Source: an uncultured Parasphingopyxis sp.
GTDB lineage: Bacteria; Pseudomonadota; Alphaproteobacteria; Sphingomonadales; Sphingomonadaceae
Reading direction: 5' to 3'
DNA length: 15,918 bases
NCBI GenBank assembly: GCA_905479515.1
Contig: CAJQMX010000265.1
Span: 1 to 15,918 of the forward strand
Both the position numbers and the translations under genes were made by a program. The number at the start of each line of letters is the position of its first letter. Within the stretch, counting starts at the first letter, position 1. Below are positions 768-15,088 of this stretch, piece after piece. The notes beneath the pieces are model-generated. The model saw only the letters and a list, made by a program, of their open reading frames with translations. It ran no database searches and was not told the origin of the DNA.

Positions 768-785
768 CCCCAGCGAAGGCTGGGG
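768..785 (+). repeat. Left copy of 18-bp direct repeat (target-site duplication), a REP hairpin
   Basis: The sequence is CCCCAGCGAAGGCTGGGG, a stem of seven base pairs with the loop GAAG. An exact copy in the same orientation, including the asymmetric loop, is at 14997-15014 just outside the other end of the island. Identical orientation of an asymmetric loop is what a target-site duplication gives; two unrelated REP copies facing each other would have opposite loops. Because the arms are G/C runs, the true duplication could be anywhere from 10 to 18 bp. Confidence 0.75.
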
Positions 786-800
786 GGTATAGTGATCTTT
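786..800 (+). repeat. Left terminal inverted repeat, 15 bp
   Basis: GGTATAGTGATCTTT is perfectly inverted at 14982-14996; the next base differs (C here, T at the other end). If the adjoining G run is counted, the TIR extends outward into the REP palindrome, so the exact TIR/target boundary cannot be fixed from sequence alone. Confidence 0.75.
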
Positions 801-837
801 CGATTTTGATGCCGTCTAGGATAGCAAAACATTCCGA

Positions 838-1761
838 TTATGAAATCTGCAATCCAATGCGCTGCCGGGTGTTCACAAGCGTCGTTACATATTTAGCTTT
901 TGAAGCTCCCAATAATGCAACAAGTAATCGGCAAATCAACCCTTTCATTTCTAGCGGCAAGTTTTGGTTTGTACCTACACCGTGCAAGGCAAAGCCCAAT
1001 GGTTGTCCCATATAACGGGCTTCGTGCATCGTGGCATTTCGCAGCACTGCTATAGAAGAACTACCTTTTGATGCTGGAGCCGCCCAATCAGGAACTGGCA
1101 TTCCGAATAAGTTGCACATCCACTCCATTCGCGCTGAGTGAGTTATACGTTTTTTGGATGGATACAAATCAGCGGCTAATGCAAAACACGTATCCAATGC
1201 TGTATAGCAATATATAAAACGCTCATATTGCAGCAATTGCGGCCCTTGGGACAGAAAAAGAGTATGTATCGCTCCCGCAACTAAATCAGCCCGCTGCGGG
1301 AAGTTGAGATTGTTTATCCAAAAGCTTTCTGCCAGTTCAACGCAATTCTCAAAGCGGCCCAAAACAACAAAATCATTCAATTTACCGGATTTGATAGGTG
1401 TAGCATCCACAAATCCTGCTTCTGTGCTCGTCAATCTTATCCCTGAAAAAAGAGAAAGGCACCATATAAGGAATTCCAAATGATCTGGGGAATTAGATCG
1501 TCCGTGACTAATGAAATGCGTCTTAGGTAATCCAAATATTCTTGAGGTAAAGGGCCGTTCGATTATCCGGCCAGAAGGAAAGTGCCTTGTTTGCTGTAGC
1601 GGAGCATATATCCATTGACCATCTATGCCATCTGATTTTTCCGTGGCATCAACTGTCTGTTGATAGTCTGACAAAGGGCCAACAAAAACGTCTCCCGCCG
1701 ATACTGTTTTGTATTGAGGCCAATATCCAAATTTTATCGATAAACCAGCTGCTTTATTCAT
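838..1761 (-). CDS. HEPN-motif protein, downstream partner of the left cargo pair
   Basis: I do not recognise a named family. From the chosen start the protein is 307 residues. The C-terminal half is helical and contains SIAVLRNATMHEARYMG. The R-N-x-x-x-H string (RNATMH, residues about 241-246) fits the RX4H active site of HEPN ribonucleases, and the preceding helices (YERFIYCYTALDTCFALAADLY) resemble the first long helices of a HEPN fold. The N-terminal half has no motif I know. Three in-frame ATGs exist at 1782, 1770 and 1761. I prefer 1761, which overlaps the upstream stop as ATGAATAA and suggests translational coupling; 1782 would give 314 residues. The role proposed is RNA cleavage or an Abi-type response together with the upstream gene. 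The HEPN assignment rests on the motif and helix pattern only. Confidence 0.6.
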   Translation of the reverse strand: MNKAAGLSIKFGYWPQYKTVSAGDVFVGPLSDYQQTVDATEKSDGIDGQWIYAPLQQTRHFPSGRIIERPFTSRIFGLPKTHFISHGRSNSPDHLEFLIWCLSLFSGIRLTSTEAGFVDATPIKSGKLNDFVVLGRFENCVELAESFWINNLNFPQRADLVAGAIHTLFLSQGPQLLQYERFIYCYTALDTCFALAADLYPSKKRITHSARMEWMCNLFGMPVPDWAAPASKGSSSIAVLRNATMHEARYMGQPLGFALHGVGTNQNLPLEMKGLICRLLVALLGASKAKYVTTLVNTRQRIGLQIS

Positions 1762-3109
1762 CGTCTGCATCAAAGTTGGCATTCATAAAATCATCGAGCG
1801 ACTGCCCGAGTTTTTTTAAAACCAGACTGGAAGCCTTTTTAGGGGCTTTCGCGATATATCGATTAGCAGCAGCTGAAAAATTGGGCGCGGATGAAAAATG
1901 AGTGTTTCGAATATCTTTAGAACTGTGTGCATTCCAATCCGCAGCTTCGTTGACGCCTACCATTAGTTCAAATGCATCCTTGTCAGTTATCAGATCATCT
2001 ATTGACTCATCGATATCTGACAATCCGATCGCGAATGCGTTGGCAACATCGAAAGTAGACGAACGTGCGTTCACGGCCCAAATCTTCAAAAGCATCTTAA
2101 CCACCTGAGGTGCGTCGGTTAGATTTGAAAGTAACACTGAGTTATAGGGAAAACGGCTGAGTGTCGCCTCCAGAACTTCATGGTATTCAGCGAGAACCTG
2201 TTCCTCGCCAAGCTCCTTTATCATTCTGCCCAATCTGTTCGCCGGATGTGACAGCTTAGTGATGGCTTTCGTTGCTGGGCTTTCTGTATCCTTTAATAAA
2301 AGTGCCTTCATCCGAATTACAATTTCTGGCTTTAACCCGATGAGAAGTTTCGGATCTGCAGCGATTAGTCGACCAATATTTTTTGCGAAATCATTATCGT
2401 GGGATTTGTCGATAATTAAATATTTCTTGATCATCGACCTATACTTTTCCAATTGAACAGCAGCTAGGCCAACCAAGAGGCGATCTGCATTTTTGCGTAT
2501 CTGGATATTACTGTCTTCACACGCATCCACCAGTTTTGAGAAAAGATAAGGTAACGCTGCTTTATGAAGCCCTGAAACTTCGTCCAACGCTATAGCTTTG
2601 ACTTCCTCAATTACGGTTGTTGGAAAGAGGTTCGCTTTATCTAGACGCTCAATAAGTGCATCGACTGCATGAGTTGTCTTTAGCAATTGTTTGCTTAAAT
2701 ATTCAGATATCACTGTGTGATATACGAAACGAGCTTCTTCAGCCGATGCGTGAACGCCCGATGGATGTGCCGCTTTATTCCGGATGTCACGAATTTGATT
2801 GAGCCGCTGATGCTCTGCTTGTGTTATCAAGCCTTCGGATAGGATTTGATCCGCCATATAGGACTCAAAAACTTCCTGATTCTTAGCCCGCTTTTCTACT
2901 TCTATTGAGACCTTTTTTGCCTTTGTATTGACCTTTGCCAATTCGGCTAGTTTGGTTCGTATATCTTCAAAGAGTGCCAAATAACTCATCACTATACAGC
3001 CGCGATACGCTGAGTTGCTGTAGCAGGCCAATGCTTCGCGCATATAATCGGTTGTGTCTTTGTTACTAATTTCCGAAAGTAAATCTTCCATATCTGTTAA
3101 GCCAGCCAT
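1754..3109 (-). CDS. HEPN-domain protein with long helical C-terminus
   Basis: This is a 451-residue soluble protein. Residues 15-145 form a HEPN-like helical bundle: TTDYMREALACYSNSAYRGCIVMSYLALFED is a typical first helix pair, and QIRDIRNKAAHPSG (R110-N111-K-A-A-H115) is the RX4H ribonuclease motif in its classic context. Residues 150-451 are predicted helical, possibly HEAT-like or a sensor region, without a motif I can name. A GGAA stretch precedes the ATG at 3109 by about 10 bases. It is first of a two-gene unit with the overlapping gene downstream. HEPN proteins are common in abortive infection, toxin-antitoxin and CRISPR effector systems as RNases; a defence role here is inferred from that and from the opposite-end STAND module. 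There is no adjacent MNT nucleotidyltransferase antitoxin, so a standard MNT-HEPN toxin pair is unlikely. Confidence 0.75.
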   Translation of the reverse strand: MAGLTDMEDLLSEISNKDTTDYMREALACYSNSAYRGCIVMSYLALFEDIRTKLAELAKVNTKAKKVSIEVEKRAKNQEVFESYMADQILSEGLITQAEHQRLNQIRDIRNKAAHPSGVHASAEEARFVYHTVISEYLSKQLLKTTHAVDALIERLDKANLFPTTVIEEVKAIALDEVSGLHKAALPYLFSKLVDACEDSNIQIRKNADRLLVGLAAVQLEKYRSMIKKYLIIDKSHDNDFAKNIGRLIAADPKLLIGLKPEIVIRMKALLLKDTESPATKAITKLSHPANRLGRMIKELGEEQVLAEYHEVLEATLSRFPYNSVLLSNLTDAPQVVKMLLKIWAVNARSSTFDVANAFAIGLSDIDESIDDLITDKDAFELMVGVNEAADWNAHSSKDIRNTHFSSAPNFSAAANRYIAKAPKKASSLVLKKLGQSLDDFMNANFDADDE

Positions 3110-3444
3110 GATAATTTCCGTTTCTTGATTGTTAGTATCGTTTTTTAAGTAGCGCTCGATTGTGCTACCATTTCTAAACCGCCTCTATGCAACAAAAAAT
3201 CTGGTGCCAACTATAAATTATGCTTCGAAATCATAGCCTCTATATCCGGCCCGACAGTCGGTAGTAACACTTCAAATTTTTGCGCCACTGGCTATCTCAC
3301 ACTTCCAACAATCGGTACAACTAAGGCAATAACTGACACTCAATGTGATTGCTGGCAATGCACCTTGCCTCGCCGTAATTGATGTTAGGCGTACTGTTCC
3401 CATATACTCGTGGAACGAATAAACTAAGAATTGAAAAAGAGCCA
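3110..3444. other. 335-bp intergenic region between HEPN gene and cas1
   Basis: No CRISPR repeats, tRNA or convincing gene were found. It holds the leader of the HEPN gene and one copy (3139-3150) of a 12-bp direct repeat, CGTTTTTTAAGT, whose other copy is at 9147-9158 upstream of the STAND gene. It also holds a small perfect palindrome, CCGAC-A-GTCGG (3251-3261), that lacks a T run and so is a poor terminator. A cysteine-rich leftward reading frame (3493 to 3272, TTG start) overlaps the cas1 end; I do not accept it as a gene. Confidence 0.5.
3139..3150 (+). repeat. 12-bp direct repeat, copy 1, at left edge of the core module
   Basis: CGTTTTTTAAGT also occurs in the same orientation at 9147-9158. 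The two copies bracket the cas1-to-PolB core. The sequence contains a T run, so chance similarity is possible, and no inverted repeats lie just inside the pair. Confidence 0.4.
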
Positions 3445-4509
3445 CTAGAGCGAAACTGCAACATGCTTGGCAAGTCCTGGTGATAATCGACAAGTGCCGT
3501 TTTTGGTTAGAATAAAGTCCGCTGGCGACATTTTCTGGCTTTGCACAAAATCCAAAACGACAGCATCAAGCTTTGGACGTTCCGGCTCCAGTAAATCAAA
3601 AACATAAGCGGGTTTGCCGCGGCGTCCGTGATGCATAATTCCAATTGTGGGATCATATCCCGCGCCGATGGCCTCAATCTGCAATTGGGATTGCTTAATT
3701 GCATAAGCGTAATTGAGCATTGCATTGATGGGGTCAGTTGCGCTGCGGTTTTCTGGCTTACTATTGTGGATTGCGCTTCGGGCTCGGTATTGTTTCCAAT
3801 GATCTGGAATTGGGTATTTGCTGTTTGATCGCCATTTCGGTCTCAATGCGGTCCAAGCTTTGAAATAAGTCGAAGCGCATTGACCTTCAATTGCTCGAAC
3901 CTGCTGCATGTCGGTAAGCTTTTCGGACAATTCGGCAATACCGCGATGTGCTCTGGCAATAGCTTTTTCATTGCATTCTGATTGCGGTAATTGCTTTTGC
4001 AATGTGACAATGCTGCTTTCCAATTTGCGGGCAATTAGGTCTTTTGCAAAACTAAGCTGCTTTTCGGGATTATGACGCAATTCCCTTTGCCAATCGACTT
4101 TGTCCTGATCGGCAGCAAAGCCGTTGCCGCTGCAAACAATTGCAATTTCACCATTCCATTTAATTCTAATGAGCGAAATATTTTGGTCTGCTAACCAATT
4201 CAAAACATCAAAAGACAAAGAACCACTGCCATCCAATAGCATTATTGTTTTGGGCGATTCCAAATCGCCTTTGAAATAGCGATGTTCAATTGGCTTTTGC
4301 GGAAAATGGGTAAATCCCTCTTTTATCAGCAATGTGCCTTTATCAATTCGCATTGAATTACCGTGACCGGATAATATCAATGGATTGGGATTGCGTTCCC
4401 GCAATTTGCGAGACTTTTGCAATTTAGCCAATTCGGCAATCCAATTTTCCGATTGAATAGCCCATTCGCTATTGCTGGCATTTTCAATTATATTAGAGCT
4501 TTGATGCAT
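3445..4509 (-). CDS. cas1: Cas1 integrase without CRISPR array (putative casposase)
   Basis: This is a 354-residue Cas1. The N-terminal beta domain includes TIMLLDGSGSLSFDVLNWLADQNISLIRI. The C-terminal catalytic domain has AIEGQCASTYFKAW (conserved Glu, about residue 208), ATDPINAMLNYAYA, GYDPTIGIMHHG (conserved His, about 293) and YVFDLLEPERPKLD (conserved acidic pair, about 305 and 308). So the metal-binding Glu-His-Asp set used to join DNA 3' ends to target DNA is intact. Its length is typical of CRISPR Cas1 or slightly longer; it lacks the extra C-terminal HTH seen in well-studied archaeal casposases. A TTG start at 4524 is possible, but a promoter -10-like TATTAT falls there, so ATG 4509 is preferred. 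No Cas2, Cas4, effector or array is nearby. As the only integrase-type enzyme in the element, it is the likely transposase. Confidence 0.9.
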   Translation of the reverse strand: MHQSSNIIENASNSEWAIQSENWIAELAKLQKSRKLRERNPNPLILSGHGNSMRIDKGTLLIKEGFTHFPQKPIEHRYFKGDLESPKTIMLLDGSGSLSFDVLNWLADQNISLIRIKWNGEIAIVCSGNGFAADQDKVDWQRELRHNPEKQLSFAKDLIARKLESSIVTLQKQLPQSECNEKAIARAHRGIAELSEKLTDMQQVRAIEGQCASTYFKAWTALRPKWRSNSKYPIPDHWKQYRARSAIHNSKPENRSATDPINAMLNYAYAIKQSQLQIEAIGAGYDPTIGIMHHGRRGKPAYVFDLLEPERPKLDAVVLDFVQSQKMSPADFILTKNGTCRLSPGLAKHVAVSL

Positions 4510-4571
4510 TAACAGATAATACAATAAAACCGGCTATTTGTCGCTGAAATTGAGGGTTAATATAGGTTTTT
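4510..4571. promoter_or_regulatory. Compact divergent promoter region between cas1 and HTH gene
   Basis: Only 62 bp separate the two divergent start codons. Leftward, GCGACA, a 17-bp spacer and TATTAT end six bases before the cas1 ATG. Rightward, a TAATAT box (4558-4563) ends eight bases before the HTH gene ATG, with a poor -35. Neither gene has a visible Shine-Dalgarno sequence, so leaderless or near-leaderless transcripts are suggested. The adjacent HTH protein may bind here to control both genes. These are motif matches by eye. Confidence 0.4.
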
Positions 4572-5186
4572 ATGTTCGCTGTTTTTAATCCAGAATTATC
4601 AATTCGAGACAATTGGAAAGAGGCTTATCCCCTCAAAGACGCTTGGTATCTTTTTGCTTCGGAGGACCTCAAGTCGCAATATCAACATGCTGGTTCGAAT
4701 GAAGCTCTTACCGCGAGTTTAACCGTGATGATGCAAAACGATTTGCATTTTCGAATTGGAGACGATGAGTTTCTCGCAATTGGAATTCAAATTGCGCCGG
4801 AACATACTTCGGAGCCCAGAACAGTTCCCAACACCCTATTTGGAAGCGATTCAGCGCAAATCGATTTTGAGCAATCAAAACTTAGCGCATTGAATTTTGA
4901 CTTTATGGATGTGCGCGTTTGTAAAGTTGCTGATACAAATTCAATCGAAAATGAAATCGTTCCCAAAATGAAATCTCGCATGGGTCGCAAGCGTCTTGAT
5001 CCGCTATTGACCGAAGCTTTAGCAATATTGCGGAGCGATGATCCGAATTTTGACGACAAGACTCAGGAAAAGAAGATTATCGCAATTCAAGATAAAGTAG
5101 CTGAACAGCACCCAGGGCAATATCCAAATGGTACAACCCCTGGAAAGACAACGGTTTGGCGCTATCTGAAAGACCTGTCGAGTTAA
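4572..5186 (+). CDS. DNA-binding-type protein with C-terminal HTH-like region
   Basis: This 204-residue protein does not match a family I can name. Residues 1-125 are acidic and mixed in structure (WKEAYPLKDAWYLFASEDL, then a strand-rich stretch around FRIGDDEFLAIGIQI). From about residue 135 the character changes: KMKSRMGRKRLDPLLTEAL, an acidic loop, KKIIAIQDKVAEQHPG, and a final TTPGKTTVWRYLKDL. The basic MGRKR followed by helices and a terminal T-T-V-W-R-Y-L helix resembles the wHTH of plasmid or phage regulators, in which the last helix reads DNA. It is divergent from cas1 with a 62-bp gap, and is followed after 128 bp by the HTH-HNH-PolB operon. Casposons usually carry one or more HTH genes. 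A regulator of the element, or an end-binding accessory factor, is the best guess. Confidence 0.6.
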   Translation: MFAVFNPELSIRDNWKEAYPLKDAWYLFASEDLKSQYQHAGSNEALTASLTVMMQNDLHFRIGDDEFLAIGIQIAPEHTSEPRTVPNTLFGSDSAQIDFEQSKLSALNFDFMDVRVCKVADTNSIENEIVPKMKSRMGRKRLDPLLTEALAILRSDDPNFDDKTQEKKIIAIQDKVAEQHPGQYPNGTTPGKTTVWRYLKDLSS

Positions 5187-5187
5187 A

Positions 5188-5213
5188 TTCCAAATGTTCC
5201 AAATGTCTCATTT
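5188..5213 (+). promoter_or_regulatory. Tandem 9-bp repeat with overlapping dyad, operator-like
   Basis: TTCCAAATG occurs twice in tandem (5188-5205), and the second copy runs into AAATG-TCT-CATTT (5201-5213), a five-base dyad. It lies just after the stop of the HTH gene and about 100 bp ahead of the HTH-HNH-PolB operon, where an operator would be expected. No second copy was noticed elsewhere. Binding by either HTH protein is a guess. Confidence 0.4.
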
Positions 5214-5314
5214 CAGCTTAGGGATATCTGGAGTCTAAACTGATCGGACTTTGAAGGCGATCTTACCAATCGAATCACTGGCAGAGCGAAAGCTGCCAAC
5301 TCGATAGGTATGAT

Positions 5315-5896
5315 ATGGCAAAGAAAAAGCGCGATTATAAAGCTGAATACGCCCGCCGCATTGCGCGGGGCAAAAAACGAGGCCTGACCAAATCCCAGGC
5401 GCGGGGGCATTCCAAACCCGGCGAGAAGCCGTTGCGCGGCAAACCCGTAAAATCAGATAAGAAGCTGGAAACCGCCCTGCGCTTCATGCGCAACACCGGC
5501 AAGCAGGGATTGGCCGCAAAACGGGCTGGAGTGTCCGCTGAGCGCTTCCGGCGCTTCCTCTATGGAAACAAGCTCGCGAAGCGAAAAAGCGGTAAATGGC
5601 GGTTTACTGACAAGCGCGGGCGCGAAATGCTGGTCCTTACGGGAGGTGAGCCGGAATATCTGGTTTTGGCAGGATACGATCAGGCCAAACTGAATGGTGA
5701 GCATCTAGCCGCTGTCAAAACCTTTGTCCTGAGCGGCGATGCATCCCTCATAGAGCCATTTGTCGGCAAATCGGTCCGCGACCTCAAAGGCAAGCTTCAT
5801 CCTCTGGAAACCGACCCCAATGAGCTGCTTCGCATCGCGAACAGCGGCAATGAGGTCTTCGAGGAAATTTACAATCTCGTGATTGATGGAGAATGA
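5315..5896 (+). CDS. Basic HTH-type protein, first gene of the HNH-PolB operon
   Basis: This is a 193-residue protein. The N-terminus is very basic (MAKKKRDYKAEYARRIARGK, then GLTKSQARGHSKPGE), a motif I have seen at the start of small proteins in mobile elements. Residues 48-90 (KKLETALRFMRNTGKQGLAA, then KRAGVSAERFRRFL) match a helix-turn-helix in which AAKRAGVS is the first helix and turn and ERFRRFLYG the recognition helix. The C-terminal part (about 100-193) is acidic and unassigned. An AGGT ribosome site lies five bases before the ATG. The stop overlaps the start region of the HNH gene. Its GC content is visibly higher than in cas1: by hand count 62% in 5341-5400 against 38% in 3961-4020, suggesting a separate origin. 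It is probably DNA-binding; its exact role is unknown. Confidence 0.65.
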   Translation: MAKKKRDYKAEYARRIARGKKRGLTKSQARGHSKPGEKPLRGKPVKSDKKLETALRFMRNTGKQGLAAKRAGVSAERFRRFLYGNKLAKRKSGKWRFTDKRGREMLVLTGGEPEYLVLAGYDQAKLNGEHLAAVKTFVLSGDASLIEPFVGKSVRDLKGKLHPLETDPNELLRIANSGNEVFEEIYNLVIDGE

Positions 5897-5897
5897 A

Positions 5898-6260
5898 ATG
5901 ACTGACCTTGAAAATGAAAAACGCAAAAACAGACGACTTGCCGCGCTTGGTACGAATGAACCGAAATGCCCTTGTTGCGGTGAAACGGATTGGCGAGTTT
6001 TTGAACAAGACCATATTGCTGGCCGTGCTCGCGATGACATGGTGGTGAATATTTGCGCAAATTGTCATCGCAAGCGCACCTATGATCAAAAAGGGCATCC
6101 GCTCCATAATCCACAAAATGATCCGCAATTGGACAGGATGGGCCATTTTCTTCTGGGGCTCGCGGATCTGCTAAAGCTGATTATCGACCGGCTTTATGAG
6201 TTTGGTTTGTTCTTAATCGCACTGTCTGAAAACTACGCTGACAATCAGGTGCAATCATGA
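5898..6260 (+). CDS. HNH endonuclease with hydrophobic C-terminal helices
   Basis: This is a 120-residue protein. Four cysteines in two CxxC pairs (C24/C27 and C53/C56) form a zinc knuckle around the HNH core EQDHIAGRARDDMVVNICANCHRKRT. H39 of DHI is the expected general base, with N51 and H57 as the remaining HNH positions. After the nuclease, residues 80-112 form unusually hydrophobic helices (MGHFLLGLADLLKLIIDRLY, then EFGLFLIALS), which could be a dimer interface, a partner-binding helix or a weak membrane anchor. The start at 5898 is chosen because GGAG lies about seven bases upstream; ATG 5886 and TTG 5883 are also in frame. The stop overlaps the PolB start as ATGA. HNH genes recur in casposons; nicking during replication or excision is plausible but unproven. 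Confidence 0.82.
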   Translation: MTDLENEKRKNRRLAALGTNEPKCPCCGETDWRVFEQDHIAGRARDDMVVNICANCHRKRTYDQKGHPLHNPQNDPQLDRMGHFLLGLADLLKLIIDRLYEFGLFLIALSENYADNQVQS

Positions 6261-9019
6261 GCGCCGCTGTCGAGGATCATGTCGATTATTTGCCTTTGCA
6301 TTTACGCGCTTATGCAGTCCTTGCTGATGCTAAGCCTAAAAATTCGAAATCCGGGAAACGACCAAAAGTAACTCCCGCAAGCGACTTTACTGTTGTCTTC
6401 GATACCGAAACGACGACCGACCCTAGCCAGCTTCTGCGCTTTGGAACTTTTCGCGTTTATCGAGGCGAGCAGTTGTTTAGGTCCGGTATTTTCTATGCTC
6501 CGAATGCGGTGTCGGAAAGTGAACTCGAAACTCTGCGCCGCTATGCAGCAGACAATGGTTTGGATTTGCTAACTAGAAACCAGTTTGCCGATGATATTCT
6601 ATTTGGTATTGCCTATGATCTTAGAGCGACAATCGTTGGCTTCAATCTGCCTTTTGATATTTCCAGAATAGCAATCAGCCATGGTTCTGCGCGGGGCAAG
6701 AAAATGCGTGGCGGCTTCACCTTCAAAATATCTACGGATCGGCGGCGCTCCAAAATTCAGGTAAAACATGTCTCGCAGCGCATGGCTTTCATCAATTTCA
6801 CCAAGCCATTTAAACAGATGCACAGTCGCAGCCAAAGACAGCGTGGTGAAAAAATCAAAACATCACTGGATCATTTTGTTGATATCAAAACGTTAGCAAG
6901 TGCGTTGCTGTCGGGTGGATACTCGCTGGCAAGTCTTTCAAGGCATTTGAACGTCGTTCATCCAAAACTCGAATTTGACGAGTTTGAAGGCCCGATTAGC
7001 GATGATATGATCAAATATGCGGTGAGAGACACCCAAGCCACTTGGGAGTGCTACGTGGAGCTGCGCAGTCGATTTAAAGTCCTCGGGCTTACCGACCTAC
7101 GCCCCGAAAAAGCCTATAGCGAAGCGAGCATCGGCAAAGCCTGTTTGAAGCATATGGGGATCGTCCCATGGCAGCAGTCCCAACCCAATTTTGACCCACA
7201 GAAAATTGCCAATATCGTATCGACCTATTTTGGCGGGCGCAGTGAGGTCCGAATAAGGCGAGAAATCAAGCAAGTGATGCTGTGCGATTTCCTGTCGATG
7301 TACCCCACCGTTTGCAGCCTGATGGCATTGTGGCGGTTCGTTATTGCCGAAAACAAAGTCACTCGAGATTCAACGGATGAAGCAAAAGCGATATTGGACA
7401 ACGCGACATTAGAAGAGCTGCAATCAAAAGATGCCTGGCGAAATCTTTCGATCTTGGTTCGCGTTAAATCAACAAAGGATGTGTTCCCAGTCCGAACCAA
7501 GTATCAAAAGGCTCACACGGCAACCATAGGATTGAATAAGCTGACATGCTCGAAACCACTTTGGTTTACGATTGCTGATTGCATTGCTTCCAAATTGCTA
7601 TGTGGAAAATCGCCTGAGATTGTTGAGGCAATTGGCTATGCGCCGGGACCAATGCAATCGGGTTTGAAGCCAATAAACATCATGGGCAACGCCGACTATA
7701 GTGTCGATCCTGCCAAGGATGATTTTTACAAACGGGTCATTGAATTGCGTCATGAAACGAAAGAGCAATTGCGCTTTGCGAGCGAAGAAAATGCACCATC
7801 ACTTGATGCTGCACAGGGCAATCTGAAGACTACCGCTAATTCGACCAGCTACGGGATATTCATTGAAAATAATGTGACCGATATAATGGGCAAAGCCAAG
7901 CTGTCCGTTTACAATGGCATTGATGATCCATTTGCGACTGAGAAAAACAAGATTGAGGAAACCGGTGTTTTCTTTGATCCTCTTTTGGCAACGCTAATTA
8001 CCGGCGCCGCACGATTGATGCTCGCAATTACCGAAACGCTCGTTTCTCAAAAGCAATTGGAATGGGTGTTCTGCGATACGGATAGCATGGCAATAGCCAA
8101 GCCTAATGGAATGGATGAACCTCAATTTGTTGAGAAGGTTCAATCGATTATCAATTGGTTTGAAAATTTGAATCCTTATGAATTTGATGGTTCAATTCTG
8201 AAAAGCGAGAGCTACAATTATAGCCATATCAACGGCAAAATACTGGAACCGCTTTACTGCTTCGCGGTTTCGGCAAAACGATATGTGCTGTTCAATTTTG
8301 ATGAGGACAAGAAACCGATGATCCGAAAAGCTTCGGGACACGGTTTGGGGCATTTGATTGCCCCGTATGATGCAAACAATCCGGCGATTGGATTTCCAAA
8401 ACCCGTTCAATCAGAAACCAAAATTGGAGTTCCTCTATGGCAACATGATCTTTGGTGGAAAATCATTGAAGCTGTTTTGGATGGACATCCATTTCAAGTA
8501 GGTTTGGATTATCATCCAAACCTATTGCTTCCGGCAATGAGCCGCTATGCTGCGACATCTCCTGCATTATTGGCTTGGTTCAAATCCTATAACAAGAGCA
8601 AGACCTATCGTGACCAGGTCAAACCCTTTGGGTTCATGCTATCATTAAGTGCAGAATGGATATTGGATGATGAGCGTTTTTGCGATGATTGGTCAAAGCG
8701 GCGGGCGGCGATCAAAGCCGCAAAGCCGATTGCTCCATTTACACGGAATCCGGTGATTGCGGCGCAGAGCGCATTAGATAGAGTCACGGGTACGCAGGTT
8801 TCTTCCGATAAGCTGAAAAGTTATTGGTCGGTATTAGCGAGCTATCATTTGCACCCTGAAAACAAGTTTTTGAATGGAGATTATTACGATAGTGGTTCGA
8901 CGCGGCGGCGACATGTCATTGCCGGCATTGCCAATCATATTGGCAAGGAGGCTAATAATTGGGAGGAGCAGGCTGTACTCGGAATAGATCAATCGCATCA
9001 ATTTGAATATTCTGATTAA
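6257..9019 (+). CDS. Family B DNA polymerase with 3'-5' exonuclease
   Basis: This is a 920-residue polymerase with all core motifs present. Exo I is FDTET (D49, E51), Exo II GFNLPFD (N130, D134) and Exo III YAVRD (Y254, D258), giving a complete DEDD proofreading site. Palm motif A is DFLSMYP (D344-P350), motif B KTTANSTSYG (K524-G533), motif C CDTDS (D607, D609), followed by KRY (674-676). It therefore should synthesise DNA and proofread. The region from about residue 690 to 920 is a long C-terminal part with no motif I know. The ATG overlaps the HNH stop by four bases, so the two are translationally coupled. In casposons PolB is thought to replicate the element, hence 'self-synthesising'. 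I cannot decide whether it is protein-primed. The second half (about 7500-8560) has a much higher density of ATTG/CAAT words than the first. Confidence 0.92.
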   Translation: MSAAVEDHVDYLPLHLRAYAVLADAKPKNSKSGKRPKVTPASDFTVVFDTETTTDPSQLLRFGTFRVYRGEQLFRSGIFYAPNAVSESELETLRRYAADNGLDLLTRNQFADDILFGIAYDLRATIVGFNLPFDISRIAISHGSARGKKMRGGFTFKISTDRRRSKIQVKHVSQRMAFINFTKPFKQMHSRSQRQRGEKIKTSLDHFVDIKTLASALLSGGYSLASLSRHLNVVHPKLEFDEFEGPISDDMIKYAVRDTQATWECYVELRSRFKVLGLTDLRPEKAYSEASIGKACLKHMGIVPWQQSQPNFDPQKIANIVSTYFGGRSEVRIRREIKQVMLCDFLSMYPTVCSLMALWRFVIAENKVTRDSTDEAKAILDNATLEELQSKDAWRNLSILVRVKSTKDVFPVRTKYQKAHTATIGLNKLTCSKPLWFTIADCIASKLLCGKSPEIVEAIGYAPGPMQSGLKPINIMGNADYSVDPAKDDFYKRVIELRHETKEQLRFASEENAPSLDAAQGNLKTTANSTSYGIFIENNVTDIMGKAKLSVYNGIDDPFATEKNKIEETGVFFDPLLATLITGAARLMLAITETLVSQKQLEWVFCDTDSMAIAKPNGMDEPQFVEKVQSIINWFENLNPYEFDGSILKSESYNYSHINGKILEPLYCFAVSAKRYVLFNFDEDKKPMIRKASGHGLGHLIAPYDANNPAIGFPKPVQSETKIGVPLWQHDLWWKIIEAVLDGHPFQVGLDYHPNLLLPAMSRYAATSPALLAWFKSYNKSKTYRDQVKPFGFMLSLSAEWILDDERFCDDWSKRRAAIKAAKPIAPFTRNPVIAAQSALDRVTGTQVSSDKLKSYWSVLASYHLHPENKFLNGDYYDSGSTRRRHVIAGIANHIGKEANNWEEQAVLGIDQSHQFEYSD

Positions 9020-9021
9020 AG

Positions 9022-9050
9022 TTGAACCAGCTTATCATTCGCTGCTTCAA
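9022..9050 (+). terminator. Hairpin just after the PolB stop
   Basis: TTGAACCAGC (9022-9031) and GCTGCTTCAA (9041-9050) pair over ten positions with one C-C mismatch around a nine-base loop, starting three bases after the polymerase stop. The following TTTAT is only a weak T tract, so it may attenuate or protect the mRNA end rather than terminate cleanly. Confidence 0.4.
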
Positions 9051-9098
9051 TTTATCCGACCGATAACGCCGGTTTCCGTTGCCATTAATGTATGTCGC

Positions 9099-9104
9099 TA
9101 TAAT
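9099..9104 (+). promoter_or_regulatory. -10-like TATAAT ahead of the STAND gene
   Basis: A perfect TATAAT lies 67 bp before the STAND ATG in the 152-bp gap after PolB. The nearest good -35 (TTGCCA, 9079-9084) is only 14 bp away, shorter than the usual 16-18, so this is a candidate only. It would give the cargo module its own transcript. Confidence 0.3.
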
Positions 9105-9146
9105 TATTCTTATTTCATGATCCTACAACTGTATCTCTTTCCATTC

Positions 9147-9158
9147 CGTTTTTTAAGT
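9147..9158 (+). repeat. 12-bp direct repeat, copy 2, at right edge of the core module
   Basis: CGTTTTTTAAGT is identical to 3139-3150 and lies 13 bp before the STAND gene start. It marks the junction between core and right cargo, but may be chance given its T run. Confidence 0.4.
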
Positions 9159-9171
9159 CTACGAATACTTT

Positions 9172-12100
9172 ATGAACTATAAACGCCCAGGTGCCATTAG
9201 AGCAGGTTTCCATTATCAGGATCTCGTTGCAATCGAGAAACTGATCGAGTTCTATCGGAATCCGAGCCGTTATGACTGGATGGAACTTGAGAGTTTAGAT
9301 CCATCTTTCAGTGCCGTGGATGATGTAGTCGCTATGCGAAGTGATGGCACCGTTGATGTCATACAAATTAAGTTTGCCGTCGACCCTGACAATCCCAAAA
9401 CTCCACTAGATTGGGATTGGCTGTTGAAGCGGAAGAAGTCTGGCTCTTCAATGTTGAAGAAATGGTTTTCTTCAGTTCAAGAACTTATTTCAAGTGCCAC
9501 GTTAGCAAGTGCGCGGCTAGTCACTGACCGTTTGCCGGACAAGCAATTTTCAGATTGCCTGAGCGGAGGGTTTATCGAAATAGACAAAATTCCAGCTTCT
9601 ATCCAAGAGAAGTTATCCGTTGAAATTCCAGACAAGCATTTGCTAGCTGAGTTTTTCCAGAAGTTCGAGTTCGTTCATTCTCAGCCACAGATCGGTGATT
9701 TTGAATACAACCTTAGATCTTCGATAATTCCGTCAGATACCGACGAAAGAGGTTGGCATATCCTGAGGGATAGTGTCGCGAAATGGGCGACAATCAAAAA
9801 TAGTCCCCAGCCATTCGGTAGAATTCAACACAGTCATATCAGCAGCATTCTATCAAAAGAACGCTCAACGCCCATCTCTCAAAACTTCTCGATTCCCATT
9901 GGTTACGAGGTGCCAGACAAAATCTTTCACGACCATTTTATAAAGAAAATTACTAAAACAGACGGTGTTTCTGTATTGTCTGGTTCCCCAGGCCGAGGAA
10001 AGAGTACTTACCTTAGCTATTGTTTCAATGAGATAAAGAAGAAGAAGGCCGTTTGCATCCGGCACCACTATTTTTTAGACTTATCCGACAAAAATACAGA
10101 TCGATTCTATTATCATGAGATAGAGAGGTCTCTTGTCAGCCAAATAGAAGCCGAGTTGCCCGACTTGACCGTTGGCGGCGACAAGTTGCTAGACTGGGTC
10201 AATGCAGCAGCACAGAGGCTCGCGGTAGATGGCCGCCGATTGATAGTCTTTGTAGATGGGCTGGATCATGTTTGGAGAGAAGGAAGATCGTTGGAGCATA
10301 TGTCGCTCCTCTTTTCCAATTTGTTACCTTGCGCGCACAATTGTTCAATTGTTGCGGGAACGCAAAACTTAGCCGAAAAATATCTCCCGAACACATTGTT
10401 GCGATATTGCCCTCAAGAAAATTGGGAAATGCTGCCGCTAATGTCGGGAGAAGCAGTATTCAATTGGCTTGAAGTGCAGCGAAAAGCCGAGCGCTTCAAA
10501 TTAGAGGTCACAGACCAACCAGATGAATCAAAATCATTAGCTGAATTGAGTGATGCATTCTATGAAATTTCAGGAGGTTTGCCACTACATCTAATCTATT
10601 CGTTTGAGTCACTCGCCAGAAACGCCGAGTTCATCAACCGCACGAATGTGCTGTCCCTCCCAAGATGCCCTGATGGTGAAATCAAAGTATACTACAGAGC
10701 TTTATGGAACGGGATATCGGTGAATGCTCGCGCTGTTTTACACAGTTTAGCAGGTGTGGATTTCCCTTTTCCCTCAGGCGGTTTGATTCAATGCTTTGAA
10801 GCGTTGGATGCAAATATTGAATGGTCTGAGGAAATTGACCATCTATTGGATCATCGAGACATAGGAACGTTCCCATTCCACGGTAGCATCTTTGTATTTT
10901 TGCGGGAGTTGCCAAGCCATGTTGATACAGTCAAACTACAACAATCCCGTCTCCTGAATTGGCTTGAAGATAGCGCCCCACACTATTGGCGTTGGGCATG
11001 GCAATGGGTCACACTAGATCGATTTGGTGACTCAGCGGATTTAATCTGCGGACCAAATAGAGATTGGGCTATTCAAGCAATTTGTCGAGGGTATCCATTC
11101 GATCAGATTGAGTTGATATTGCAAAGGTCGGAACAAGCCGCTTTTCAGGCATTTGATTTACCTAGATGCCAAGAATTGCGATCGCTGCGTCATCGCGTCA
11201 CCAATGCAGCAGAATTTCAAACTCACCAATTTGATCAGTTTGTTGCAGCGGCATTGCAATTAACCGACGATGATTATGGGGTCTTTCACCTCAAAGATAA
11301 CCTCGAATTTCAGACTCCTGAGTTAATGTTGTCGCTGATTCGGATACTTGAATCAAAATCAAGGCACATAGTCGCAGACCGTGCAATTACTGAATTAAAC
11401 AGAAGAATTACCAATCAAAATAAAGCTTCCGATTCTCGCACTATCGACTGGGCCTCCATTTTAGTAAAAATTGTAGTGCACCTCGAAAAAATCGATCTTT
11501 CCAGAGTAACCAGTTTTGTGAGGCAGGCAGGAAACGCCCACAACCTGCTCTCAATTGCGATACTCGAATGTATGACAATGCATGACTATAATAGGGCAAT
11601 TGCACTGGCGGAAATCAGCGGCGGAACGCAAACTGCAAGCGCATTATTTTCCATTTTATGTATTGAAAAAATCGACCCTCGAACCCGTCCCAAGCTAAGG
11701 AAATATTCCAGTTTTCCATTGGTACAGTCACTTTTTCTTGTGCGCGGATGGAAACCTGAGAAGCTGACCAGACGTGTTGATCTACAAAATTTATTTCCGG
11801 CTAAAGATCCCTATGATTACGAATTTTTAGCCTACACTAACGGTTTTCGGGATTTGTTCTTCAAAATCTTTGCATTAACTTTGGACGACAAACTGAAAGT
11901 TATGCAGTGGCATGGATTGGATAAAAACAAAGACACGAGTTGGATAGGAAATGCGGCAAATAAAATCCGGGACGTTGCCATTTCCATTGCCAAGGACTGG
12001 AAAGCCGATCCAAATTCAATATCGTACAGTCAAATATTTCGGCGTATGGTCACGGAGTTGAATGATTCTAGTGACTACGAAACTCATCGAAGGCACAAAG

Positions 12101-13521
12101 TTCTGAAGAACGCATGCATTGAGATTGCAACAAACCTAATTCTGTTGCGACTTGGGTTAGGAGGAGAGAAAGTTCAACTTTCCGAAGTTGAAATTGCTGC
12201 TGAATCTGATCTTTTTTCAATAGATCTATTTATCGATCATTACTCTAAACACCGTCTGCAGATTTTCGAGCCCGAAGCAGCAGAGTTCATTTCGAGTGAA
12301 TTTTCAAAAAAACTAAAAACCAAAGTCATTGAATTTTCCGAAAGATCCAATCTCGCTATAGACCTTTCCCTCTTCGCATTGGATCACTCTTGCTCAGAAA
12401 GTGCCTCCTTTTTTCTTACTAGGGCCGCCGAAAGCCTGATCGGCTATGGTTGGAGAAAAGATCCGTTTGCACATGAAATAGTTGCAAGCCTTAAATACGT
12501 TGGCGACTATGACCCTGATTGGGTTGCTAATCAGTGTATTTCGCTGGCGAGTCTGTTTGAGGAAATTACTGAATTTACAGATGGTTCCGAAACAAATCAT
12601 GCGCGCTCAGAATTTTATTCGCTGGCAGTTAAGGTTTTGCCGGCCAACGCTGGAGAGCTTTACGGAGATCTCGTTCGTCGCGATGAATGGTACTATGCAG
12701 ATCAGCTTGTAGAACAGTATGCAAAGGAGTTAGATGCAGATGATATCTACGACTCAGCTCTGCTAAAAACCTTTGTCGAACCTGCAAATCAACATGTCCC
12801 GAACGATGTTGTGAAGTCATCAAATTCTGATCCGATGGGAATCAACGACAGCATATCACGGTTTTGTGGAATCTCTAGAATACAAGCTATCGCAGATGAA
12901 CAGGAAGATAGTTTGAATATTTCGGAAACCACAACCGAACATAATCTGGACTTTGCCTTATATTCGCCCGAAAACTTGGGACTATTCTTAGATAGGCCGC
13001 TGCCCGCTGGATCCTACAGATGGGAAGATGACAAACTTGCTGAATGGACAAAATATTGGATTGGTCATGGTCGCGGTGTGGATGCCTTGGAGAAAATTAA
13101 AGAAGTGATAGAAGCCGGGCAACACACACTTCAAATTGAGTCCGGGATTGATGGGATTTTTGAACAAAGTTTAGCCGTTCAAGGAACCTCGAACGCGTTT
13201 TACTGGCTTGTACAGGCACAGCGACACAAGCGCGGCTGGTCCTATTGGCACGGTCGGAAAGAGGCCGAAAATCGATTGAGATTGGTCGCGAAGCATTATC
13301 CAGACCGATGGCAGGAATTTATACAGGCGACTTCCAGGCCTCTGATCGAGCGCGGAGAAGAAAAGGGTTGGTTAGTACTAGGTCAAAGCCATTTGATTTT
13401 TTATCTGCTTGAGACCGGTCAATTAAAACTAGCCAAATGTTTACTCGCATCCATGATTGGTTCGCTGAAAAGCGAAACAAGAGACCAGCCTATTCGCGAT
13501 CCAAAATGGATTAGCAGATGA
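9172..13521 (+). CDS. PD-(D/E)XK nuclease-STAND NTPase, Avs/Cap4-like defence protein
   Basis: This is a 1449-residue protein. Residues 1-230 begin RPGAIRAGFHYQDLVA and contain VDDVVAMRSDG...VIQIKF (D50/D51, Q65-x-K67), a DUF4297/Cap4-type PD-(D/E)XK nuclease core with Gln in place of the usual Glu. Residues 265-470 are a STAND-type NTPase: Walker A GSPGRGKST (271-279) and Walker B RLIVFVDGLDHV (D362, D365), followed by winged-helix-like helices. The rest, about 480-1449, is a long helical repeat region, as in the sensor part of Avs proteins. In that family (AVAST), the C-terminal repeats bind a phage protein, NTPase domains assemble and the nuclease degrades DNA. The target here is unknown. 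No Shine-Dalgarno sequence is seen before the ATG. The stop overlaps the next gene by four bases, so both probably act together. Confidence 0.82.
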   Translation: MNYKRPGAIRAGFHYQDLVAIEKLIEFYRNPSRYDWMELESLDPSFSAVDDVVAMRSDGTVDVIQIKFAVDPDNPKTPLDWDWLLKRKKSGSSMLKKWFSSVQELISSATLASARLVTDRLPDKQFSDCLSGGFIEIDKIPASIQEKLSVEIPDKHLLAEFFQKFEFVHSQPQIGDFEYNLRSSIIPSDTDERGWHILRDSVAKWATIKNSPQPFGRIQHSHISSILSKERSTPISQNFSIPIGYEVPDKIFHDHFIKKITKTDGVSVLSGSPGRGKSTYLSYCFNEIKKKKAVCIRHHYFLDLSDKNTDRFYYHEIERSLVSQIEAELPDLTVGGDKLLDWVNAAAQRLAVDGRRLIVFVDGLDHVWREGRSLEHMSLLFSNLLPCAHNCSIVAGTQNLAEKYLPNTLLRYCPQENWEMLPLMSGEAVFNWLEVQRKAERFKLEVTDQPDESKSLAELSDAFYEISGGLPLHLIYSFESLARNAEFINRTNVLSLPRCPDGEIKVYYRALWNGISVNARAVLHSLAGVDFPFPSGGLIQCFEALDANIEWSEEIDHLLDHRDIGTFPFHGSIFVFLRELPSHVDTVKLQQSRLLNWLEDSAPHYWRWAWQWVTLDRFGDSADLICGPNRDWAIQAICRGYPFDQIELILQRSEQAAFQAFDLPRCQELRSLRHRVTNAAEFQTHQFDQFVAAALQLTDDDYGVFHLKDNLEFQTPELMLSLIRILESKSRHIVADRAITELNRRITNQNKASDSRTIDWASILVKIVVHLEKIDLSRVTSFVRQAGNAHNLLSIAILECMTMHDYNRAIALAEISGGTQTASALFSILCIEKIDPRTRPKLRKYSSFPLVQSLFLVRGWKPEKLTRRVDLQNLFPAKDPYDYEFLAYTNGFRDLFFKIFALTLDDKLKVMQWHGLDKNKDTSWIGNAANKIRDVAISIAKDWKADPNSISYSQIFRRMVTELNDSSDYETHRRHKVLKNACIEIATNLILLRLGLGGEKVQLSEVEIAAESDLFSIDLFIDHYSKHRLQIFEPEAAEFISSEFSKKLKTKVIEFSERSNLAIDLSLFALDHSCSESASFFLTRAAESLIGYGWRKDPFAHEIVASLKYVGDYDPDWVANQCISLASLFEEITEFTDGSETNHARSEFYSLAVKVLPANAGELYGDLVRRDEWYYADQLVEQYAKELDADDIYDSALLKTFVEPANQHVPNDVVKSSNSDPMGINDSISRFCGISRIQAIADEQEDSLNISETTTEHNLDFALYSPENLGLFLDRPLPAGSYRWEDDKLAEWTKYWIGHGRGVDALEKIKEVIEAGQHTLQIESGIDGIFEQSLAVQGTSNAFYWLVQAQRHKRGWSYWHGRKEAENRLRLVAKHYPDRWQEFIQATSRPLIERGEEKGWLVLGQSHLIFYLLETGQLKLAKCLLASMIGSLKSETRDQPIRDPKWISR

Positions 13522-14927
13522 GTGAAACGTCTCTTTCCATACTATTTGAGCGACTGCATTGGCCGGTTCCCTTCGTAAAATGGCGAGCCGCTCGGCAGAT
13601 CGCAAAGCTAATTAGAAGCAAAGATGAACGAGCCCGCCAAAGGTTCATCATTTGGATCAGCAAGCAATATCTTGAATCCGACTGCGCAATGTGTGTTTCG
13701 ATAATCGAGGGTTTCGAACTATCTGTGTTCTTTGAATTTGAAGAGCTTCGAGAGGCAATTAGAAAGCCGTCTTTATACACCGACTCTCTGTTGGTTCGAA
13801 TGTATCCTGATTCAAATCTTAAATTCGAATCTTGGCGGTATACCTATTCGACAAAAATGGAAATTCCGTCAGCGCACGAAGCACGTCTGTTCAAAGGTGC
13901 AATGGGGTCGGTTATCCCACTGATCTTCGAAAGCAGCCTAAAGAGATTGCAGGAAATATCCGGCCTTCCCTTTTTGCAACAATGGAGGTCGCAATGGTTA
14001 GATATTTGGAGAAACAATGAAGAACCATATTCTGATTCGCCCGACTATTTTTTCAAGGGAGACAGAGGATCGGTGGGTCAATTTGACGTACGACAAAAAG
14101 CTGTTCTCATGTCCGCATATTTAAGAGTGTTAGCTCTGGCCTACAGTGAATGGGAACTGCCAGTTCACATAGCCACCTTTAAATCTATGCTGGTTTCAGC
14201 AATCAATCGAGGCGTCGCAGATTTTGATTTCAGCGTGCGGCCGGAATGGAGCAAAAATTTGTTGGAACTTATGCAAGAGACTGATCCTCAGACATTTGCA
14301 CGCAAGGTTTGGAGCGCAGCAAAAGAGGAAGCCGGTACGGGATTTGAGCCTTTGAATATTGTCGCTGTCGATCACTCCGAACTGCAGATTCTAGAGTTAA
14401 AAATCGAACGTGTTATCACGTCCAGAAAATATGATAAAAAGGAACTTCAAGGGCTGCCTTTTCCAGATCCGCCTTGGATTTTCTTGGAAAATGAAAATGG
14501 TGAAATTGATGGGTATCTAGACGATAAGCCCGTGAAGCCTCGAGGTGGATTACAGTGCCTTACAGTTGCGATCCAACCAGCGTTTTATGGGAGGTTTTCA
14601 GTTGGTTTCTTCCCAGATACATTAAAATTTGCTTCTCCATTGCTCACAACTGGGAGGGCTTCCATCTCAATATTTTCTGATCATCTTGGGCTGAAAGACG
14701 ATGAGGGTACATTGTCGAACTTACTGATTTGGCAGTCTGATTGGCAGCCAGTACATCCGGCGCAGTTTGATTTTACTTCCAGCCTTACAACTTGTCGCAG
14801 TAGCTCAATCAAGCGCTTTCGGTCTGAAAGTAAAGTTTCTCTCCCTCGATTAGTGAGGCTCCGACATGGGAAGCGAGAAAACGCATACTCAGATTTTGAG
14901 ATATCTGAAACGGTATTTGTGATTTAG
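13518..14927 (+). CDS. STAND-coupled partner protein, unknown function
   Basis: This is a 469-residue protein whose ATG overlaps the stop of the STAND gene as ATGA, so it is almost certainly co-translated. Residues 1-70 (LHWPVPFVKWRAARQIAKLI, then SKDERARQRFIIWI) look like a HEAT-type helical repeat, similar in feel to the C-terminal repeats of the upstream protein. The middle is helical and tryptophan-rich. The last third contains strand-rich segments (LQCLTVAIQPAFYGRFSVGFF). No catalytic motif, signal peptide or membrane segment is visible. It could extend the target-recognition surface, stabilise the large protein or restrain it; a split off the C-terminus of a once longer STAND protein is also possible. 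The function is unassigned. Confidence 0.65.
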   Translation: MSETSLSILFERLHWPVPFVKWRAARQIAKLIRSKDERARQRFIIWISKQYLESDCAMCVSIIEGFELSVFFEFEELREAIRKPSLYTDSLLVRMYPDSNLKFESWRYTYSTKMEIPSAHEARLFKGAMGSVIPLIFESSLKRLQEISGLPFLQQWRSQWLDIWRNNEEPYSDSPDYFFKGDRGSVGQFDVRQKAVLMSAYLRVLALAYSEWELPVHIATFKSMLVSAINRGVADFDFSVRPEWSKNLLELMQETDPQTFARKVWSAAKEEAGTGFEPLNIVAVDHSELQILELKIERVITSRKYDKKELQGLPFPDPPWIFLENENGEIDGYLDDKPVKPRGGLQCLTVAIQPAFYGRFSVGFFPDTLKFASPLLTTGRASISIFSDHLGLKDDEGTLSNLLIWQSDWQPVHPAQFDFTSSLTTCRSSSIKRFRSESKVSLPRLVRLRHGKRENAYSDFEISETVFVI

Positions 14928-14981
14928 ATTGAAAGAGTGCAACTTGTTACGGGACGTTTAATTTCGACACGCACATATATA

Positions 14982-14996
14982 AAAGATCACTATACC
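14982..14996 (-). repeat. Right terminal inverted repeat, 15 bp
   Basis: This is the exact reverse complement of 786-800. Only 54 bp separate it from the stop of the last cargo gene, so the element is packed to its end. Confidence 0.75.
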
Positions 14997-15014
14997 CCCC
15001 AGCGAAGGCTGGGG
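14997..15014 (+). repeat. Right copy of 18-bp direct repeat (target-site duplication)
   Basis: CCCCAGCGAAGGCTGGGG is identical to 768-785 in the same orientation. It joins directly to the rest of the REP element on its right, so this copy retains the native right context and the left copy the native left context. Confidence 0.75.
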
Positions 15015-15088
15015 CCTAAACCGATGGTAGCGAGACTCGCATAGGCGGGTTGGTTGCCAGCCTGCGCTGGCGTTACGGTTGTTAACCG
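15015..15088 (+). repeat. Remainder of the REP/BIME-like element with further hairpins
   Basis: Palindromes are GCGAG-A-CTCGC (15030-15040), GCCAGC-CTGC-GCTGGC (15056-15071) and CGGTT-GTT-AACCG (15076-15088). The reverse complement of the second resembles the 18-bp hairpin (CCAGCGCAGGCTGG against CCAGCGAAGGCTGG), so the whole is a REP, spacer, inverted REP unit. The last hairpin overlaps the stop of the DUF3885 gene and may end its transcript. Confidence 0.6.

Follow-up and report, generated by a model that had tools for sequence, protein, structure and literature searches.

The window, i.e., the whole analysed stretch of 15,918 nucleotides from an uncultured Parasphingopyxis sp., harbours an element of 14.2 kb which is bounded by terminal inverted repeats (TIRs) and target-site duplications (TSDs) and which encloses cas1, a family B DNA polymerase gene (PolB), an HNH gene and a fourth core gene. 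The features are the following, with occurrence given among 32 relatives.

768..785, + strand: left TSD copy, REP hairpin CCCCAGC-GAAG-GCTGGGG (with a GGGG-tipped TIR, 14-bp core 770-783)
786..800, + strand: left TIR, GGTATAGTGATCTTT (with a GGGG tip, 784-800)
838..1782, - strand: cargo, phage-protein family without assigned function (phrog_5937, 2.3e-67); 0/32 relatives
1754..3109, - strand: cargo, N-terminal part like the PD-T7-3 defence protein (4.2e-13); 0/32 relatives
3445..4524, - strand: cas1-solo (casposase), Pfam Cas_Cas1 3.7e-38; 32/32 relatives
4572..5186, + strand: ORF without assigned function; 3/32 relatives
5315..5896, + strand: conserved core protein of 193 aa; 31/32 relatives
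5883..6260, + strand: HNH-endonuclease-like core protein, PHROG HNH 2.1e-5; 28/32 relatives
6257..9019, + strand: PolB, PHROG DNA polymerase 1.3e-7; 31/32 relatives
9172..13521, + strand: cargo, Cap4-like nuclease domain and STAND-type NTPase
13518..14927, + strand: cargo, partner gene without assigned function
14982..14996, - strand: right TIR (14982-14998 if the tip is GGGG)
14997..15014, + strand: right TSD copy, REP hairpin in direct orientation (core 14999-15012)
15015..15078, + strand: remainder of the interrupted REP unit, the whole of which recurs in related genomes

The start codon of cas1 is likely located at position 4509, because aligned homologues mostly begin at MHQSS or an equivalent thereof. 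Residues E213, H298 and E313 of the encoded protein align with E162, H232 and E247 of the M. mazei casposase, whereby the H-E interval is equal in both enzymes (H298-E313 and H232-E247), and the best solved relative was identified to be 6OPM (7.3e-27; 11 further Cas1 sequences rank behind it), which is the M. mazei casposase itself (PMC6977970). The PolB was found to match Pfam DNA_pol_B at 0.0025, a value below that family's cut-off, and a single-sequence search returned one match (E 0.02) and no convincing solved relative. Its motifs are the exonuclease-like FDTET at 48, DFLSMYP at 344, NSTSYG at 528 and DTDS at 607. For the 193-aa core protein a confident AF2 model was obtained (pLDDT 89.9), in which a part resembles a helix-turn-helix by weak fold matches only (Foldseek best E 0.26, no match at E <=0.001). 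As for the cargo, the protein encoded at 9172..13521 matches AAA_22 (1.4e-6), a defence effector model (5.4e-13) and, below cut-off, Cap4_nuclease (0.0014), and the product of 13518..14927 gave no match in the family scans. Except that the 1754-3109 protein weakly matches a CARF-HEPN model (0.0018), no other Cas family was found among the nine element ORFs scanned, nor an IS transposase family or a RAYT (TnpA-REP) gene, and the repeat search revealed no CRISPR array.

The element's ends were initially described as a 15-bp perfect inverted repeat flanked on the outside by an exact 18-bp direct repeat, and both are present (786-800 / 14982-14996 and 768-785 / 14997-15014, respectively); chance could hardly place such a TIR directly against such a direct repeat at either end. 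The AT-rich interior was likewise reproduced, with a GC content of 0.444 inside as compared to 0.538 on the left and 0.529 on the right. The exact border is ambiguous by 2 bp and two splits read alike, namely (i) TIR GGTATAG with the 18-bp TSD and (ii) TIR GGGGTATAG with the 14-bp TSD CCAGCGAAGGCTGG (770-783 / 14999-15012), of which the latter, with its GGGG tip, is favoured because the flanks of the relatives L002, L111 and L112 mismatch the TIR tip. A stand-alone cas1 with conserved catalytic residues, a PolB gene, TIRs and a TSD thus being at hand, together with HNH, the element is a casposon, and the Cas1/PolB transposon with a true TSD which the preliminary description had proposed is supported.

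That the hairpins might belong to the element itself, or represent two older facing REPs, without any duplication of a target, would account for their near-palindromic nature and for their adjoining the TIRs at both ends, and in G004 a REP in inverted relation was identified at two ends. However, the GAAG loop is asymmetric and was confirmed to be in direct orientation at both ends, the direct repeats are asymmetric in 34 of 34 TSDs of the group treated below, the TSDs of that group comprise 32 different sequences, and the TIR is rare in genomes. Nor is the TIR tail a constant part of this REP family, a possibility raised in the preliminary description, as GGGGTATAGTGAT with at most one mismatch was found at 38 places in 19 genomes (reversed control 7), as compared to up to 192 copies per genome for a REP class. 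Unoccupied sites, the only footprints of mobility obtained for these elements, carry a single hairpin copy, which contradicts this explanation outright and renders it hardly credible.

Joining of the outer flanks had been described to give a continuous unit of REP, spacer and inverted REP. The inverted partner hairpin is GCCAGC-CTGC-GCTGGC (15056-15071), and the REP unit is uninterrupted in G987 and G985, both of which belong to a single related genus. As a REP pair, the interrupted target is of the REPIN type. The proposed search for an empty site was successful on one side: in both genomes a similar left flank (77-78% identity over query positions 1-181, the stretch before the hairpin aligning poorly) runs into the uninterrupted unit with its single hairpin, but the right-flank gene of the window does not adjoin the REP unit there, relatives of this gene being found in G373 and G338. 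Among 396 genomes of the order 251 gave a match somewhere, none of the listed matches spanning the junction, and the unoccupied site of the window type was found in the genus of G373. The site of the G010 element is empty and contiguous in G575, where a single hairpin copy, shorter by one G, is present, and that of the G066 element has a contiguous counterpart at 70% in one related genome, in which the hairpin is degraded. The flanks of the G001 element are not neighbours in the congeners examined, e.g., G447, and for the G030 element the genus is represented by the G030 genome alone.

Other Cas1/PolB islands were also found to bear TIRs at both ends, mostly of the same G-tipped kind, in line with what the preliminary description suggested to look for. 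Including the window element, 34 complete elements were delimited, 16 in set 1 and 18 in set 2, the latter having been collected afterwards; two ends on one contig were not obtained for ten loci of set 1 and five regions of set 2. In 24 of the 34 elements the dyad of the best stem-loop and the centre of the TSD coincide exactly, and in 28 of 34 they lie within 1.5 bp of each other. Both the stem test and the energy test gave p <=0.05 for 13/16 targets in set 1 and 15/18 in set 2; with 12 nt of context added these figures fall to 6/16 and 14/18, and upon trimming of set 1 to the 14-15-bp core 11/16 remain at 0.05. Hairpins of differing sequence are the usual target across the group and not incidental. 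Several genomes are rich in such structures, with the REP hairpin CCCCGGC-N4-GCCGGGG occurring in 192, 125 and 70 copies in G006, G018 and G011 (reversed control 0 each) and CCCCGGACTTGATCCGGGG in 31 copies in G001, the two at the element counted in; at least 43 copies of one REP class were found in 7 of the 21 element-bearing genomes searched. This abundance is what would be expected if insertion occurred anywhere between genes and hairpins were met merely through REP-rich intergenic space, yet random insertion near REPs would not place the dyad exactly at the TSD centre that often, and hairpins matching the targets in quality are rare among flank windows, so that this explanation is considered very improbable.

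Another competing reading assumes that a pair of inverted, C-rich half-sites with a spacing of about 10 bp is recognised by the integrase as ordinary duplex sequence, hairpins being hit because such half-sites are common in REPs and terminators. Distances 6-9 from the centre are indeed mostly C or T with 0.92-1.13 bits each, which makes a sequence component certain, and visual inspection shows C-rich borders in two non-hairpin targets, on both sides in L012 and on the left in G003. For distances 6-9 the pair counts were excluded as evidence for pairing, as the maximal-repeat rule can favour C/G there. Inner stem pairing, however, far exceeds what column make-up predicts, with 30, 26 and 30 of 34 paired at distances 3, 4 and 5 versus 17.9, 13.2 and 12.3 expected, and the same holds for distance 10 (26 versus 10.6), while at loop distances 1 and 2 the count of 5 pairs each lies below the expected 9.0 and 9.6. 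Moreover, among sites possessing the C-rich half-sites all three inner pairs are present in 15/20 targets, as opposed to 45/306 in the flank background (4/181 inside elements), and the half-site criterion holds for only 20 of the 34 targets. Pure half-site reading is therefore regarded as unlikely, though it is to be taken seriously, and recognition of hairpin-forming DNA is favoured over it, with less certainty than the remaining conclusions.

Exceptions exist: the targets of L012, L017 and L115 are no hairpins, nor is that of the G003 element, which was pieced together from two contigs. Neither test is passed by L103 and L117, whereas L016 fails in energy only and L049 in the stem only. In a Cas1 tree of 20 sequences the non-hairpin label has no single origin (3 changes). 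In G004 two TIR ends bear one and the same REP, oriented identically with respect to the element, and are hence not a TSD pair; for L035, a candidate far end of this element, no similarity was found.

Since most of the examined relatives in other bacteria reside in different hairpins, Cas1 likely chooses hairpins for landing. In Tn7 the target protein is separate from the enzyme. By analogy, the 193-aa helix-turn-helix-like protein or the HNH protein could choose the target with Cas1 only catalysing, an idea to which their wide conservation (31/32 and 28/32) and the putative helix-turn-helix part of the model, suggested by weak matches, lend weight, and a Tn7-like role of HTH and HNH proteins was proposed in the 2014 casposon paper (PMC4046053). 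Against this, the 1.9-kb element L120 possesses TIRs and a hairpin TSD with a mere cas1 remnant, where mobilisation in trans or later loss is possible, and the A. boonei casposase is described to prefer its own target site in vitro (PMC6977970), a preference qualified by the HTH domain which this enzyme bears itself (PMC6614799). A separate target protein is accordingly deemed rather doubtful, about as much so as the half-sites.

With good confidence, the casposon inserted on the exact dyad of a REP hairpin, which became duplicated, with its Cas1 integrase likely having attacked the strands symmetrically about the C-rich hairpin. Two catalytic Cas1 subunits would face one another over the hairpin axis, whereby both 3' ends (CTATACCCC-3') would be joined to opposite strands 14-17 bp apart, and gap filling or repair would then make two hairpins from one. 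PolB may copy the element, and the conserved HNH and helix-turn-helix-like proteins may aid excision or target choice. Landing in REPs or terminators would spare genes and provide each genome with many safe sites, and the cargo, being variable and mostly defence-like, may pay for host tolerance. That an entire lineage of Cas1 integrases recognises folded or fold-prone hairpins of almost any sequence, inserting about their twofold axis and duplicating them, is a tentative extension, which has a reasonable chance of being true but falls short of being probable.

By comparison with published descriptions, the element shares a cas1 without extra domains, PolB, HNH, TIR, TSD and an alphaproteobacterial host with bacterial casposons of family 3 such as HenMar-C1 from Henriciella marina (PMC4046053); the integration-site section of that source names tRNA genes, aEF-2 and further sites in intergenic or coding sequence, with no REPs or hairpins among them. 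The TIR of 15-17 bp is shorter than the 25-602 nt given there for the 2014 casposon set (PMC4046053). The M. mazei and A. boonei casposases are alike in their Cas1 fold, catalytic E-H-E, G-tipped TIR and 14-15-bp TSD, this stagger and the M. mazei end TATATCCC being reported in PMC6977970. Differences reside in the target: both enzymes are described to use the 3' end of tRNA genes (PMC6614799, PMC6977970), whereas in the present elements the palindrome is formed by the TSD itself, and the A. boonei casposase requires a leader upstream of the TSD (PMC6614799, PMC6977970), whereas no leader motif or leader conservation was seen beside the TSDs of the 34 elements. Literature searches brought up no description of casposons that target hairpins or REPs. 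Insertion sequences that target REPs are small and employ their own transposases. Here, by contrast, hairpins of many different sequences serve as targets for a Cas1 element, and differing from REPIN/RAYT systems, no RAYT-type transposase is among the scanned ORFs, so that the REP is merely the casposon's target. REP-specific insertion is described for ISPsy8, ISPa11, ISPpu9, ISPpu10, ISRm22 and ISRm19 (PMC1525189).

CRISPR Cas1-Cas2 likewise duplicates a short, often palindromic repeat by two-sided attack (described in part in PMC6614799). The present elements differ in being without Cas2 or array, in inserting singly with mostly 8-17 kb and in using many repeat sequences. CRISPR adaptation is presumed to have originated from casposons. 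The targets named for them in the papers considered, tRNA ends and aEF-2, leave the frequent palindromy of CRISPR repeats unexplained, and a large bacterial group with a mostly short, C-rich, palindromic duplicated target constitutes a target-side parallel to these repeats. Integrases of this group may read DNA shape, and hairpin landing, if chosen by Cas1, would resemble the duplication by CRISPR of its hairpin-like repeats. If hairpin recognition were lineage-wide, the group would provide a living model of how a casposon target turned into a palindromic CRISPR repeat as well as a compact, broadly targeted carrier moving defence systems among REPs and terminators.

Concerning other replicons, none of 29 candidate stretches in viral contigs was confirmed as a Cas1 relative, and matches in plasmids comprise 82 records with the best place of each below 60% identity, of which the 20 listed bear the annotation of a CRISPR-associated Cas1. 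Elements of the kind studied here carry defence-like cargo, with defence-system matches identified in the cargo of 9 of the 11 relatives examined.

The element within the window is delimited by perfect 15-bp inverted repeats (786-800 and 14982-14996), outside both of which lies the exact 18-bp direct repeat CCCCAGCGAAGGCTGGGG, so that both the terminal inverted repeat (TIR) and the target-site duplication (TSD) claimed in the preliminary description are present at the positions proposed, with a 2-bp ambiguity at the border between them (TIR tip GG or GGGG). The direct repeat folds as a hairpin with a 7-bp stem and a GAAG loop, which stands out against 1591 same-length windows of its own flanks (p 0.0019 for the stem, 0.0006 for the energy). 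The core of the element comprises PolB, an HNH-like protein, a 193-aa protein and the following gene:

3445-4524, minus strand: cas1, core gene of the window element

The top solved relative of the window Cas1 family is 6OPM, i.e., the M. mazei casposase, whose catalytic residues are E162, H232 and E247 (PMC6977970); their spacing of 70 and 15 is identical in the aligned 6OPM chain, the numbering of which is offset by 17, and E213, H298 and E313 of the window Cas1 align with them. By its defining features, the window element is almost certainly a casposon.

Related elements were collected in two sets. Scanning 31 Cas1 sequences against genome contigs yielded 23 loci, and set 1 holds the 16 elements, including that of the window, with both ends on a single contig; ten loci (L003, L004, L008, L009, L013, L018, L020, L021, L022, L023) lacked a pair of ends on the same contig. 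Three elements were assembled by eye from two contigs each, two of them with hairpins (G009, G019) and one without (G003). Of 396 genomes from the order of G001, four had a Cas1 match, two of them new. For set 2, 22 of 398 genomes in the order to which the Brevundimonas locus belongs had matches, at 27 places in all; 23 of these were taken on, leaving out G016, a member of set 1, and three partial G954 matches. From 23 regions fetched, 18 elements with both ends were obtained by an end finder that required an inverted and a direct repeat, the hairpin being no criterion; no end pair was found in L099, L101, L109, L113 and L121. Each of the other 15 complete set 1 elements has all four core genes, and across 32 relatives (set 1 except the window and G010, together with set 2) Cas1 was found in 32, the 193-aa protein and PolB in 31 each and HNH in 28. 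Two genomes, G678 (L100, L105) and G622 (L117, L118), carry two different casposons, each in its own hairpin. L120 (6275-8194) is a 1.9-kb casposon, decayed or non-autonomous, that has TIRs and a hairpin TSD but of its genes keeps no more than a cas1 remnant containing stop codons.

Among the 34 TSDs, 32 distinct sequences occur, some of them multi-copy REPs (small repeated extragenic palindromes), and all 34 are asymmetric, which allows direct orientation to be distinguished from inverted. Compared with windows of the same flanks, p was at most 0.05 for 13 of 16 targets in set 1 and 15 of 18 in set 2, for stem length and folding energy alike; the signal weakened when 12 nt of context were added (6/16 and 14/18) and dropped to 11/16 when set 1 TSDs were trimmed to a 14-15-bp core. 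For 24 of the 34 elements, the dyad of the best stem-loop, searched for within 30 nt on either side, coincides exactly with the TSD centre; it lies within 1.5 bp of it in 28 and within 2.5 bp in 30. Maximal direct repeats measure 14-23 bp, and 14-17 bp where the TIR found starts with the full GGGG tip (L002, L105, L106, L111, L112, L116-L119). As the hairpin exceeds the TSD in six elements (L002, L100, L105, L106, L111, L112), the duplication follows the axis, on which it is centred, rather than a cut at the hairpin base. Hairpin-centred insertion is strongly supported as the rule of the group, and Cas1 is likely its agent. A terminator-like run of four A or T adjoins the hairpin in five of the 34 targets.

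Unoccupied sites were sought in related genomes. For the window, an uninterrupted REP unit had been expected on joining the flanks through one hairpin copy, and this is partly borne out: in G987 and G985 (77-78% identity), a left flank resembling that of the window continues unbroken through a single hairpin into the remaining REP unit, but alignment is poor directly ahead of the hairpin; the REP unit is repeated in both and in related genomes. The G010 element, whose TIR TGGTAAACATA differs from that of the window, has a contiguous empty site in G575 with a single hairpin one G shorter, the site carrying a variant hairpin in G521 and none in G553. The G066 empty site is contiguous in one genome (70%). 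The left flank of G001 and an intact hairpin were found in G432 with the right flank located elsewhere, suggesting a rearrangement. Within L001 (1545 / 15397), the flanks, with rpmE-like and polA-like sides named by eye from reading frames, are not adjacent in the congeners seen; possibly the element lies where the chromosome was rearranged.

What is recognised was approached by aligning the 34 targets on the TSD centre. Pairing falls below expectation at the two loop positions and far exceeds what column make-up predicts at positions 3-5 and 10; positions 6-9 are rich in C. No outward position from 12 to 26 exceeded 0.2 bit in the symmetrised table (at most 0.31 on a single side), hence no leader-like motif was seen. 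C-rich half-sites alone could serve as the cue; at sites carrying them, full inner pairing occurred in 15 of 20 targets, 45 of 306 flank sites and 4 of 181 sites inside elements, which favours hairpin-forming DNA over half-sites alone and makes the latter the less favoured reading, even though the flank hairpins may be REPs themselves. The two readings are only incompletely separable by sequence; hairpin shape, rather than sequence, is more probably than not the cue. Among the papers listed by open full-text searches, most of them seen as listings, none was found to describe casposons that target hairpins or REPs, subscription papers, preprints and supplements lying outside this search. A review gives the palindromic T-psi-C loop repeat as what is recognised by the A. 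boonei casposase (PMC9939771); in that target the segment lies upstream of the duplicated part.

The four cargo genes of the window (838, 1754, 9172, 13518) were found in none of the 32 relatives; two of them, 9172 and 1754, show weak likeness to a Cap4-like nuclease with STAND NTPase and to PD-T7-3, respectively. A scan of 20 of 61 listed non-core ORFs, from 11 of 14 elements, gave defence-model matches in nine of the 11, including PtuA, Drt3a/b, GajA/GajB, IetA and type I, II and IIG restriction-modification; L002 and L016, with one ORF scanned each, gave no such match. L001 (11854-15248), L002 (978-4371) and L048 (2033-5390) share a cassette of similar appearance, made up of a ~530-aa gene and two genes of ~297 aa. 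In L001 and L048 the larger gene matches a large serine recombinase and the smaller two match RepB/ParB-like proteins, the L002 copy being assigned by gene sizes alone, and the cassette is possibly a nested mobile element.

Adjoining the window element, a DUF559 endonuclease-like gene (236-631) sits within inverted repeats 214-238 / 592-616 (88%; region 145-660), and together they may form a separate small mobile unit. In the G004 assembly, two TIR ends (L034 654, L035 697) each bear a copy of one REP, which faces the element the same way at both; this does not suit a TSD pair and may reflect the presence of two elements, an inversion or a mixed assembly. Near 627 of L028 (G017), a TIR-like end adjoins a hairpin whose opposite side reads GTATAC, as if a second, diverged end were present there.
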